A stretch of DNA of 47,287 nt from assembly GCA_020832225.1 (NCBI GenBank), contig JAFIFA010000144.1, positions 1 to 47,287 on the forward strand, in the 5' to 3' direction. The notes under the pieces were generated by a model. It was not told the origin of the DNA. It made no database searches and saw only the letters and a program-made list of their open reading frames with translations. This DNA comes from Balneolaceae bacterium (lineage in GTDB: Bacteria > Bacteroidota > Rhodothermia > Balneolales > Balneolaceae). Positions within the stretch are counted from its first letter, which is position 1, and the number at the start of each line of letters is the position of its first letter. Below, piece by piece: positions 26,723 to 31,346 of the stretch. The translations under genes were made by a program, and so were the position numbers.

Positions 26723-27949
26723 ATGAATATCATTCGCTTTATATCAAGGCGCTATCTTTTTTCAAGAAAACAGCTCTCCCTGATCTCGGTTCTTACCGGA
26801 ATTAGCATTGCGGGGATCACTCTCGGTACGGCACTGCTGATTATTGTCCTCTCCGTATTTAACGGTTTTTACGATGTGATCCGCGGTTTTCTTCTCTCTT
26901 TCGATCCCGATATCCGCATTGAGCTTGCCGACCAGTCGGCAATCAACCTTGCTGACGAGATCGCCAGCCGGATTGAGGAGCACCCCGAGGTGGTTGGCGT
27001 CTCCCCGTTCATTAACGGCAAGGCGATGATCATATCAGATGGCAGCCGCAATGATGTGGTGACTGTGAGAGGAATCAAGCGGGAGTCTCACATTCGGATC
27101 AACAAGCTTGAAAACAGTGTAAAGAGCGGTGTTTTTGACCTCTCGGTGCAGGATAATCGCCCCGGAGTGGTTATTGGGGAGACCCTGGTTAACCGCTATG
27201 GCTTCAGTCCGGGAGATGAGATTGCGCTGCTTAGCCCAACCGGAATGCGGCGGGCCCTTACCCAGTTTTCGGCACCCAGGGCGAGCCGTTTTAATGTGAG
27301 GGGGCACTACTCGATTCAGCAGATCATCGATGACGAAATTGTTTACATCGACCTCGGGGCCGCTCAGCGACTCTTCAACATGCAGAATGAGATCACCGGT
27401 TACGACCTCCGCCTCACGGATACCGACCGTGCTGAGCGGGTTAAACAGGAGCTTCAGGAGGAGCTTGGTGCAGATTTTCAGATACAGACCTGGTACGATC
27501 TTCAGCGCCCGCTCTACGATGTGATGCAGCTGGAGAAGTGGGGCTCCTACTTCATTCTCATGATTATCGTTCTGGTTGCCGTTCTGAATATTGTGGGATC
27601 ACTCACCATGATCGTCATTCAAAAGAAACGGGATATTGGCGTTCTGATCTCCATGGGAATGACGCCCAAGACGATCCGTAAAATCTTTATCAGCCAGGGT
27701 ATTCAGATCGGGCTGATCGGCTGCCTGATTGGCGGAACACTCGGTATTCTCCTCAGTTTTGCGCAGATGGAGTATGGCCTTGTGAAACTGACCTCATCAT
27801 TTATCATTGACGCATACCCTGTTGCCATTCGGCTAACCGACATCGCCCTGGTTCTTGGAGGGAGTATGGTTCTCTGCCTTGGCGCCAGCTGGTATCCGGC
27901 CCTGCGAGCTGCTTCCGTGCAGCCCGCTGATGCCGTGAGGGATGAGTAG
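26723..27949 (+). CDS. LolC/LolE-type lipoprotein-releasing ABC transporter permease
   Basis: The 408-residue inner-membrane protein has the MacB/LolCDE plan: an N-terminal transmembrane helix (SVLTGISIAGITLGTALLII), a large periplasmic domain (about residues 45-260), then three helices. These are YFILMIIVLVAVLNIVGSLTM, a segment near GIQIGLIGCLIGGTLGILL and IALVLGGSMVLCLGASW. SRRYLFSRKQLSLISVL at the start is typical of LolC/E. No ATPase gene is adjacent, so lolD is elsewhere. It should release lipoproteins from the inner membrane for transfer to the outer one. Confidence 0.88.
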   Translation: MNIIRFISRRYLFSRKQLSLISVLTGISIAGITLGTALLIIVLSVFNGFYDVIRGFLLSFDPDIRIELADQSAINLADEIASRIEEHPEVVGVSPFINGKAMIISDGSRNDVVTVRGIKRESHIRINKLENSVKSGVFDLSVQDNRPGVVIGETLVNRYGFSPGDEIALLSPTGMRRALTQFSAPRASRFNVRGHYSIQQIIDDEIVYIDLGAAQRLFNMQNEITGYDLRLTDTDRAERVKQELQEELGADFQIQTWYDLQRPLYDVMQLEKWGSYFILMIIVLVAVLNIVGSLTMIVIQKKRDIGVLISMGMTPKTIRKIFISQGIQIGLIGCLIGGTLGILLSFAQMEYGLVKLTSSFIIDAYPVAIRLTDIALVLGGSMVLCLGASWYPALRAASVQPADAVRDE

Positions 27950-28460: not shown

Positions 28461-30131
28461 CTAATTGTAGGTGTCAGGAAGGTCGTTTTCATAGAGAACC
28501 ACATCACCGGGCTTCGCATACTCCCTGAGCAGTGCATTGGCATCAAACAGGGAAGAGACAACCTTCAGATTGATCTCCCGACCGTTGCTAACAGATCGTA
28601 TTCCCTCGGCAATGGGACGAGTCTGCTCTTTGCCAACCAGGATAATCAAATCCAGTTCTGCATCCGCAATATGGCTGCCCCATTTGCGGTTCTCCTCCTC
28701 TTCAAGCTCACCCAGTTCAACCATTCCCGGCGTGATCAATATTTTGCGTCCGCCTGAAAAACTTTTCAGAACATCGACTGCATTTCTGGCCCCTACCGGA
28801 TTGGAGTTAAAGGCATCATCAATAATTGTGAGTCCATTTTGCTTTTTAAGCTCCAGCCGGTGTTCAACAGGCTCCATTCTCGATGCGGCAAGGGATATGG
28901 TCTGTAGCCGTATATCGAACTCCGAGGCTACGGCTGCTGCCAACAGCATATTTTGAATATTGTGAGATCCTAAAAGCTTTGTCTCCACCCGCTGGCTCTC
29001 TTCGCCGTCATCGTTCACCCTTACCAGGTCGAACGCTGTGCCCTCTGAGCCCACCTCGACTTTCTCTGCACGCAGATCACCATTCTCACCCACAAACCGA
29101 ATTTTAACATCGTTCCTCAGCTCCGCCATCTCTCTTACGAGATCATCATCTCCGTTCAGGATCAGCGTACCCCCGGGTTTCAGCTCTCGAGCGAGCGTAC
29201 CTTTTTCACGTGCCACAGCCTCCCTGGAGCCAAACGTTTCGAGATGAGAGATCCCGACGTTGGTGATTACGGAGATATCGGGCTGGGCAATATCACACAG
29301 CTCTTTAATATTTCCTTCGTATCTGGCTCCCATCTCAAGTATCAAGACCTGATCATCTGCCTTCAAGTCATTGTTGATCACCTTGCAGATCCCCATCGGG
29401 GTGTTGTAGCTGCCGGGTGTTACGCAGACCCGAATCCTCTCTTTCAGAAAAGCGTCGATTACAAACTTCGTGCTTGTTTTGCCATAGCTTCCTGTAATGG
29501 CAACCACTTTAAGGTGAGGAAGTGAAGCCAGCTTTTTCCGGGCATCTCGCTTAAATCCGTTTTGAATGGTCTTCTCAACCGGTTTCATTATCCACGCCGC
29601 CACTGAAACGAAAAAGGGAATCAGCATATCGCTGAGCACCAGTCCGAAGCTGAGCAGGTAGGGATCAACGTTTACGAAAGCGCCGGCAAAATCACGAATC
29701 TGTACGCCGGTGAAAGTAAAATCGACCAGATAGAACCAGATTGTTCCAAAAATGATCAGTGAGGTAATACCCACTCTCTTCAGCCTGGCCGTATAGACAA
29801 GCGGCTTCTTCTCCTTTTCGGGCCTGTAACGAGATGTGCTGCCAAACCAAAAGAGGATAAAAACAAACATCGTGATGATCCCCGTCGTGAGCGTTATGTA
29901 ATCCACAAGGAGATAGATCACAATGAAGATGAGGATCATAAAGAGAGTATGCTCCGATGTAAAAACCTTATCAAACAAGTTGCGGTTCTTCCACTGCCTG
30001 AACTCATTGGTCTTGTAGCCGGTTTGCTGCAGCATGTGCAGAAAAAAGCGCAGACGATATAGGGAGTGACGAAGAAAGATGACCACCATCAGAATTACGA
30101 TGGCATTCATTGTGATTGTGTAGAGGTCCAA
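28461..30131 (-). CDS. Membrane-anchored MurF-like Mur ligase
   Basis: The 556-residue protein has about five membrane segments in residues 1-185, such as NAIVILMVVIFL, TLFMILIFIVIYLLVDYIT and SLIIFGTIWFYLV. A Mur ligase core follows with the P-loop AITGSYGKTSTK (about 211-222), ILEMGARYEGNI, NVGISHLETFGS, KLLGSHNIQNMLLAAAVA and IIDDAFNSNPVGARNAVDVL. The core is closest to MurF, which joins D-Ala-D-Ala to UDP-MurNAc-tripeptide, but the soluble N-terminal MurF domain is replaced by the membrane part. It may be a MurF variant or a ligase for another polymer. It is divergent from the nucleotidyltransferase gene. Confidence 0.88.
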   Translation of the reverse strand: MDLYTITMNAIVILMVVIFLRHSLYRLRFFLHMLQQTGYKTNEFRQWKNRNLFDKVFTSEHTLFMILIFIVIYLLVDYITLTTGIITMFVFILFWFGSTSRYRPEKEKKPLVYTARLKRVGITSLIIFGTIWFYLVDFTFTGVQIRDFAGAFVNVDPYLLSFGLVLSDMLIPFFVSVAAWIMKPVEKTIQNGFKRDARKKLASLPHLKVVAITGSYGKTSTKFVIDAFLKERIRVCVTPGSYNTPMGICKVINNDLKADDQVLILEMGARYEGNIKELCDIAQPDISVITNVGISHLETFGSREAVAREKGTLARELKPGGTLILNGDDDLVREMAELRNDVKIRFVGENGDLRAEKVEVGSEGTAFDLVRVNDDGEESQRVETKLLGSHNIQNMLLAAAVASEFDIRLQTISLAASRMEPVEHRLELKKQNGLTIIDDAFNSNPVGARNAVDVLKSFSGGRKILITPGMVELGELEEEENRKWGSHIADAELDLIILVGKEQTRPIAEGIRSVSNGREINLKVVSSLFDANALLREYAKPGDVVLYENDLPDTYN

Positions 30132-30350: not shown

Positions 30351-31346
30351 ATGAAACTTATTATTCCGATGGCAGGCCGGGGCACCCGTGTACGCCCGCA
30401 CTCTCACACAACTCCAAAACCTCTTCTGCCTGTTGCCGGCACCATGATTGTCGAGAGAATTGTGGAGACCTTTGCGCGCACCCTGGACCGTAAAATCACC
30501 GAAATCGTCTATATTCTCGGCCCTGATTTTAGCCGCGAAATCAAAGAGACGCTTACTGAGATGAGTAAACGCCACAATGCCAAGGCGACGTTCCGTACGC
30601 AGGATGTGGCTCTTGGAACCGCTCATGCCGTCTCCTGCGCAGGTGAAAGCCTGAAAGGTGAGGTGATTATTGTCTTTGCCGATACGATATTCGACTCCAA
30701 CGAGACGGTCAGTGTTGAAGGTGCAGACAGCGTGATCTGGCTTAAGGAGGTTGATGATCCATCCCGTTTTGGCGTAGCCGTTCATGATGGAGATACCATT
30801 ACCGATTTTGTTGAGAAGCCGAGTGAACCGATCTCAAAACTGGCGATCATTGGCGTCTACTATTTCAAAAAGGGAGAGGAGCTGAATAAAGAGATTCAGT
30901 ATCTGCTGGATAACGATGTTACCGGCCACGGTAACGAATATCAACTTACGGATGCGCTGGATCGGCTGTTGAAAGATGGAAAGAAGTTCCGGAAGGCAAC
31001 GGTTGATGAGTGGCTCGACTGCGGCACACTTCCTGCATGGCTAGACACCACCGGTGAAATTCTTGAAAAAGAGAAGCACAGCTATGGCGATTACGATAAC
31101 ACAACCATCCATCCACCTGTCTATTTTGGGGAGGGTGTAAAGATCAGTGGTAGTGAGATTGGACCCAATGTAAGTGTTGAGGCGGGGACGGTTATCAAAA
31201 ACAGCACTATCAAAAACAGCATTATTCAGAAGAGTGCAACACTTGATGGATGCAAGCTGGATCGATCAACGATTGGTAATCATGCTGAGGCTGTCAATGC
31301 GACCGGCTCAATCCATATCGGCGATCACTCTATTCTGAAGCAGTAG
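30351..31346 (+). CDS. Sugar-phosphate nucleotidyltransferase with C-terminal beta-helix
   Basis: The 331-residue protein has a GT-A-like nucleotidyltransferase domain: IIPMAGRGTRVRPHSHTTPKPLLPVAG with the GxGTRxxP-K signature, VALGTAHAVSCAGE, IIVFADTIFD and FVEKPSEPISKLAIIGVYYF. A left-handed beta-helix of hexapeptide repeats follows (about residues 245-331: VYFGEGVKISGSEIGPNVSV). It resembles GlmU/RmlA-type uridylyl- or thymidylyltransferases that activate sugar phosphates for cell-surface glycans. The sugar cannot be told. A terminator follows at 31368. Confidence 0.92.
   Translation: MKLIIPMAGRGTRVRPHSHTTPKPLLPVAGTMIVERIVETFARTLDRKITEIVYILGPDFSREIKETLTEMSKRHNAKATFRTQDVALGTAHAVSCAGESLKGEVIIVFADTIFDSNETVSVEGADSVIWLKEVDDPSRFGVAVHDGDTITDFVEKPSEPISKLAIIGVYYFKKGEELNKEIQYLLDNDVTGHGNEYQLTDALDRLLKDGKKFRKATVDEWLDCGTLPAWLDTTGEILEKEKHSYGDYDNTTIHPPVYFGEGVKISGSEIGPNVSVEAGTVIKNSTIKNSIIQKSATLDGCKLDRSTIGNHAEAVNATGSIHIGDHSILKQ

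Follow-up and report, generated by a model that had tools for sequence, protein, structure and literature searches.

The gene analysed here lies in a 47,287-nucleotide stretch of a Balneolaceae genome (the window, in what follows) and very probably codes for the sole MurF, the D-Ala-D-Ala-adding ligase, of this bacterium, in a form in which a membrane domain occupies the position that the UDP-binding domain has in classical MurF. Our main reading, to which we give a probability of about 0.55, is that this only MurF is embedded in the membrane and acts on a lipid-linked tripeptide at its cytoplasmic face.

Gene and domain organization

The features of the gene and its surroundings are collected in Table 1. 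Pfam detected no N-terminal Mur_ligase domain (PF01225, UDP-binding) in the window protein, while the middle and C-terminal domains were found together with a whole P-loop. The preliminary description of this DNA had claimed that the Mur ligase core is intact and that about five transmembrane segments replace the UDP-binding domain, and both statements hold, with five helices and PF01225 absent. The best NCBIfam model for the protein was murF (TIGR01143; 250.3 bits, E 3e-74), with a score below the cut-off of 288.6 bits and a match beginning only at profile position 73. None of 58 genomes, this one included, had a protein over that cut-off.

An artefact of annotation, assembly or start codon choice could in principle join two unrelated pieces, and the gene does begin with TTG in a frame that stays open for another 81 bases upstream. 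The TTG, however, aligns with the starts of the relatives, the same domain was found in 134 of 164 genomes of the class, and 34 aligned rows have this architecture in one frame, with invariant residues in the membrane part. We consider the artefact refuted, because the architecture is conserved.

The conserved neighbours of membrane MurF are either a nucleotidyltransferase or an alpha/beta hydrolase plus a short Rho. The divergent sugar nucleotidyltransferase lies beside the gene in all 15 Balneolales loci examined; in the window, its product is below the cut-off of every NCBIfam model among the matches listed (25 of 31). In loci from other orders of the class, the short Rho gene adjoins membrane MurF in 15 of 17 (identity assigned by model for two of them), and the alpha/beta hydrolase (frames of 262 to 435 aa) is found upstream on the same strand, within approximately 1.1 kb, in 17 of 17 (L223 to L238 and L240). 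None of three hydrolases tested was over a cut-off among the NCBIfam matches listed, the closest match elsewhere in the window genome is C207 (42% identity), and no such gene was found in the rho-adjacent stretches of 15 classical-MurF genomes. A role of this hydrolase as a wall partner is possible.

Table 1. Features of the membrane MurF gene, its neighbours in the window, and the decayed frames of family f7
Feature	Position	Strand	Basis or remark
Membrane MurF gene	28461..30131	-	556 aa; begins with TTG; coordinates include the stop codon
N-terminal membrane domain, residues 1-203, five TM helices, proposed N-out/C-in	29523..30131	-	Hydropathy, AlphaFold2
Cytoplasmic loop 1, residues 25-57, invariant R26, Q35, Y39	29961..30059	-	Alignments A3 and A4
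Cytoplasmic loop 2 to start of helix 4, residues 98-119	29775..29840	-	Alignments A3 and A4
Mur ligase middle (ATPase) domain, residues 212-402	28926..29498	-	Pfam Mur_ligase_M, E 8e-40
P-loop TGSYGKTS, residues 213-220	29472..29495	-	No variation in an alignment of 26 class members
Mur ligase C-terminal domain, residues 424-546	28494..28862	-	Pfam Mur_ligase_C, E 3e-13
C-terminal tail ENDLPDTYN	28464..28490	-	Motif comparison with classical MurF
LolC/E-type ABC permease, downstream neighbour	26723..27949	+	Below the cut-off of its own model
Sugar nucleotidyltransferase, divergent neighbour	30351..31346	+	Context
Decayed membrane MurF-PurC frame, G070	L283:1378-3552		
Decayed membrane MurF-PurC frame, G178	L284:3286-5784		
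Decayed membrane MurF-PurC frame, G090	L285:3750-5993		

The membrane domain

Hydropathy placed segments near residues 2-20, 63-81, 82-100, 120-138 and 159-177, and the AlphaFold2 model of the whole protein (mean pLDDT of 89.4) has helices at all five places; the membrane domain modelled alone reached a mean pLDDT of 91.9. A simple hydropathy count over the N-terminal part of 34 aligned rows, the window included, gave 3 to 5 segments, the low counts being partly an artefact, since some rows start late (cut to the tblastn range). With segments taken from the AlphaFold2 model, all 35 rows had a greater density of Lys and Arg on the side proposed as cytoplasmic (means of 17.7 in 76 residues there and 0.71 in 16 outside), so that by the positive-inside rule we propose an N-terminus outside and a ligase core in the cytoplasm. 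This is the topology prediction that the preliminary description had called for. As the domain is conserved over the class, chance can be dismissed as its origin.

Searches for relatives of the domain were negative within their scope. Pfam found no family over its cut-off in the three N-terminal domains tested, and a weak match to PAP2 (E 0.0065), below the cut-off, was disregarded. The membrane domain alone had no Foldseek match in the PDB with an E of 0.001 or less, and with a second structural aligner none of 280 chains reached a Z of 5; these missing matches do not prove a new fold.

In both class alignments (of 35 and of 26 rows), twelve residues never vary: R26, Q35, Y39, K108, K109, T114, R116, R119, P172, P184, E186 and A197. 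Ten of them lie in cytoplasmic segments and none outside, with 76 of the 203 positions being cytoplasmic (binomial 0.0016); the other two are R119, at the cytoplasmic end of helix 4, and P172, inside helix 5. The stretch from loop 2 to the start of helix 4 carries K108, K109, T114, R116 and R119, and four of the five invariant Lys/Arg residues are clustered there (K108, K109, R116 and R119), forming a patch that we propose as a candidate diphosphate-binding site. The domain is probably more than an anchor, because it has 12 invariants (10 of them cytoplasmic), and decayed copies (described below) keep only 4 or 5 of the 12. A bare anchor is thus disfavoured by the invariant cytoplasmic residues, and we regard a participation of the membrane domain in substrate binding as likely.

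Relationship of the core to other Mur ligases

The structures closest to the core are MurF proteins, namely 3zl8 (Z of 38.2, rmsd of 4.1, 371 residues aligned) and then 4qf5_B (Z of 37.2, rmsd of 4.2, 379 residues aligned). In a quick tree of 58 rows, the core clusters with MurF and not with MurE or MurD; membrane forms make up one clade (support of 100) and the classical MurF of the class another (support of 99). The deep order of this tree is not to be trusted, because it warns that long branches meet. Eight of 20 MurF loci of other classes, missed by the motif pattern, were dropped from both the tree and the motif counts.

The membrane form shares with classical MurF (TIGR01143; PDB 3zl8, 4qf5, 4cvk and 1gg4) the same middle and C-terminal domains and the P-loop, and differs from it in having the five-helix membrane domain instead of the UDP-binding N-terminal domain. 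The motif M-x-ELG was present in 21 of 21 membrane forms, in 25 of 27 classical MurF and in none of 10 MurE/MurD proteins, and [YF]N-x-[NS]P is also common to both forms. The differences are no less regular: classical MurF has GD[MI]xELG (25/27), whereas the membrane form has TPGMxELG (21/21); the tail ENDLPD is found in all 21 membrane forms and in none of the 27 classical MurF tested; and the terminal KGS of 20 of the 27 classical proteins (15/15 of the class, 5/12 of others) is missing from all 21 membrane forms.

By the classical definition, i.e., three domains and a score over the cut-off, the membrane form is not a member of MurF, while by role and core it would work as one. The unlike tail and motifs, along with the low score, might suggest instead a ligase for some other polymer or a wall-modifying enzyme, with the MurF step performed by an unrecognised enzyme or missing. 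Against this stand the MurF motifs that were kept and, above all, the genomic evidence that follows, and we consider it improbable that the protein is anything other than a MurF.

Absence of another MurF in the genome

Five places in the genome match Mur_ligase_M. Three are MurE, MurD and MurC of the dcw cluster, a fourth, outside that cluster, is FolC, and the fifth is membrane MurF. A second MurF, sought among these places as named by models, was not found, nor is there any other candidate Mur-type ligase in the genome, in which membrane MurF fills the slot of the classical enzyme. The dcw cluster reads mraZ-mraW-ftsL-ftsI-murE-mraY-murD-ftsW-murG-murC-ftsQ-ftsA-ftsZ (names read from the open reading frames by eye, with MurE, MraY, MurD, MurG and MurC assigned by model), with no murF between murE and mraY. 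The genome has one Ddl over its cut-off. Its MurE and MurC keep PF01225 and its MurD keeps its own N-terminal domain, and PF01225 is also kept in two classical MurF of the class.

Of 40 further dcw stretches of the class, 39 contain both murE and mraY, always next to each other with no murF in between, whether the genome is of the membrane or of the classical type. The lack of murF at this place is therefore seen even where a classical MurF sits elsewhere (L183 to L222 without L209).

The preliminary description had named the search for a second murF in the genome as a check, on the view that, if a normal one existed elsewhere, this gene might code for a ligase for another polymer or a wall-modifying enzyme, and that the lack of one, together with full complementation of a conditional murF mutant, would make it the plain MurF. 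The first alternative falls, as no other MurF was found here and none of the 134 class genomes that carry the membrane domain has a MurF over the cut-off. The second stands in part: with no other murF found, the protein is very probably the MurF of its lineage, yet it is not a plain one, since its substrate domain is embedded in the membrane and has invariants of its own.

Distribution and evolutionary history

The census of the class covered 164 genomes at least 90% complete. The 134 genomes with the membrane domain had no MurF over the cut-off, 27 had a classical MurF over the cut-off and no strong domain match, and in 3 neither was complete: G432 has a partial core (E 2.9e-61), and G045 and G048 are fragmented. 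The domain was found at an E of 0.001 or less in 137 genomes, strongly in 134 (E 6e-36 or better) and weakly in 3 (E 7e-11 to 3e-13), and a MurF-type core accompanied it at E 7e-66 or better in 125 of the 134; the other 9 had a weaker murF match, four of them with a frame of <350 aa (G429, G461, G464 and G467). The strong-domain and classical sets do not overlap, and exclusion therefore holds in 161 of the 164 genomes. No family code contains both types, the classical form being in f7, f13, f15, f16 and f19 and the membrane form in the others. This mutual exclusion, together with the search of the genome that found no other MurF, leads us to reject a ligase for another polymer.

In the census of the phylum (392 genomes), 88 genomes had the membrane domain at E 1.5e-24 or better, in 298 a MurF passed the cut-off of the family model, and 6 had neither. 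Four more gave weak domain matches (G070, G178, G110 and G391); the matches of G110 and G391, which are outside the class, were at E 7e-4 and 1e-3, and both genomes had a strong murF match (E 1e-107 or better).

A contig scan with the window protein covered the best 80 of 106 relatives. Wherever a title names a genus, family or order, it is Balneolales or Rhodothermia, save for one labelled Chitinophagaceae (L040), whose match length and score are those of L010, of the window's genus. Rhodohalobacter halophilus (L038) is among these relatives, with the same match length and score as L009 (G018, also of the window's genus). Among plasmids, 0 of 111 tblastn records covered 80% of the query and, of two matches opened, one (Subdoligranulum) was a classical MurF in a dcw-like cluster. 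Membrane-fused MurF-like proteins occur in Bacillota. In the open-access literature, as covered by titles and the beginnings of abstracts and with most subscription papers outside it, we found no description of a membrane-embedded MurF, and the word murF is absent from the main text of a paper on a Salinibacter model (PMC6508672).

On a quick species-proxy tree of 41 rows built from MraY, MurD, MurG and MurC (MurE was left out, and MraY is present in 40 rows, as neither murE nor mraY is seen in L209), parsimony asks for 3 changes of the trait, while the starred branches by themselves force 1. With midpoint rooting, which does not infer the root, the membrane form falls on both sides of the deepest split, and we therefore infer that the class had this form first and regained the classical one later.

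Decayed copies in family f7

All three census genomes of family f7 (G070, G178 and G090) have a classical MurF plus a decayed membrane MurF, so that their weak matches to the membrane domain are genuine. The decayed frames adjoin the short rho and consist of the membrane domain, a decayed core without P-loop and, in frame, a SAICAR synthetase (PurC). Each keeps five hydrophobic segments, Pfam finds no Mur domain left in them, and in G070 there is one stop (TAA) within the matched stretch, just before the decayed frame. The decayed copies of these three genomes, all of one classical-MurF family, also weigh against a function other than that of MurF. The protein is almost certainly the MurF of its lineage, because no other MurF was found, the two forms exclude one another across the class, and decayed copies exist in f7.

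The decayed copies of G070, G178 and G090 retain, respectively, 4, 5 and 4 of the 12 membrane invariants, compared with 5, 7 and 8 of 18 control positions (those with one residue at 70 to 90%). The middle domain has 20 invariant positions, of which 14 were alignable; the three copies retain 1, 3 and 2 of these. Since the membrane invariants are kept no better than the control, the special constraint on them has gone with the ligase; they were lost no faster than other positions, which does not show that they went first. T114, R116 and R119 are replaced in all three copies, while K108 and K109 are kept as K or R, so the loss of the patch is partial.

Some further observations concern this locus. 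In family f7, the former site of membrane MurF is marked by the short rho, and 15 classical-MurF genomes have two rho-type genes each, one long and one shorter (370 to 411 aa in 13 of the 15). In 12 stretches beside the short rho of other classical genomes (on the divergent side, two of them shortened by contig ends), no remnant was found. The decayed part of the MurF-PurC frame may be a membrane anchor for PurC, or PurC may have its own internal start.

Substrate and proposed mechanism

The preliminary description had proposed a lipid-linked or membrane-bound substrate or, alternatively, a membrane-tethered MurF. The MurF part of that proposal stands. We put the chances of a lipid-linked rather than a UDP-linked substrate at about even, by analogy with MurT.

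MurT, which together with GatD forms the lipid II isoglutaminyl synthase, also lacks the UDP domain and acts on lipid-linked precursors (PMC6113224, PMC3266927): GatD/MurT amidates lipid I and lipid II and not the UDP-pentapeptide (PMC3266927). According to PMC6113224, the diphosphate of the UDP substrate of MurE and MurF is placed at the boundary between the N-terminal and middle domains, and the authors suggest that for lipid II this boundary marks the exit of the lipid from the membrane, where a UDP domain would be unnecessary and likely to clash with the membrane. It is at this boundary that the membrane domain of the window protein begins. The two proteins differ, as MurT amidates D-Glu with its partner GatD, no membrane domain is described for it in the accessible parts of these papers, and the window protein scores 32.6 bits against the MurT model NF045635, the cut-off of which is 800. 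On the side of the substrate, tripeptide builds up in the wall of Staphylococcus aureus with low murF (PMC9603463), so its MraY, MurG and later steps can carry the tripeptide. The MurT precedent, the boundary position and the S. aureus tripeptide are the reasons why we favour the lipid-linked tripeptide, at roughly even odds.

A membrane-anchored N-terminus on a Mur-type ligase is also found in PgsB/CapB, of polyglutamate synthesis. PgsB/CapB is absent among the NCBIfam matches listed for the window protein (25 of 27).

In the proposed mechanism, MraY, and possibly MurG too, would act first, on UDP-MurNAc-tripeptide. The invariants at the membrane face, including K108, K109, R116 and R119, would then hold undecaprenyl diphosphate where classical MurF holds UDP, and the core would use ATP to activate the end of the tripeptide and join to it, as lipid I or II, the D-Ala-D-Ala made by Ddl. 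That, in much of the class, transfer of the tripeptide by MraY (perhaps also MurG) precedes completion of lipid I/II by membrane MurF, leaving little or no UDP-MurNAc-pentapeptide, is a tentative proposal that we rate a shade under even odds.

The competing explanation with most weight, which we take seriously although it seems the less probable one, is that the sole MurF still works on soluble UDP-MurNAc-tripeptide, the membrane domain being a tether, perhaps beside MraY for channelling, with loops that bind UDP anew. In its favour, the two forms have replaced one another by the changes counted on the species-proxy tree, which is simplest to understand if both work on one UDP substrate. At the threshold used, genomes of the membrane form and of the classical form could not be told apart by any column of MraY, MurG, MurC or MurD (MurE was left out), so no adaptation of these enzymes to a tripeptide substrate, and no signature in MraY or MurG, is visible; the window genome has an ordinary MurC, MurD and MurE. 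Moreover, MurT, likewise devoid of the UDP domain, could carry out the reaction of MurE with a UDP substrate in vitro, according to data that its authors mention and do not show (PMC3266927). The basic residues that persist at positions 108 and 109 of the decayed copies also count against a lipid-linked substrate. On the other hand, the cytoplasmic part of the membrane domain in the model amounts to two loops and a helix extension, no family or PDB entry was found to match the domain, and a bare anchor has no need of 12 class-invariant residues. On balance, we retain the lipid-linked tripeptide as our preferred substrate.

Implications

To our knowledge, MurF is treated as a soluble enzyme of universal occurrence, with which the cytoplasmic phase of cell wall synthesis ends. 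A replacement seated in the membrane, present in 134 of the 164 class genomes and there unaccompanied by a classical MurF, would show that this step can move into the membrane. Should the substrate be lipid-linked, the order of the textbook pathway is not universal, and the peptide would be finished after, and not before, its attachment to the membrane carrier. With a membrane form, a classical form and a decayed copy, the class is a natural swap system for the replacement of an essential pathway step.
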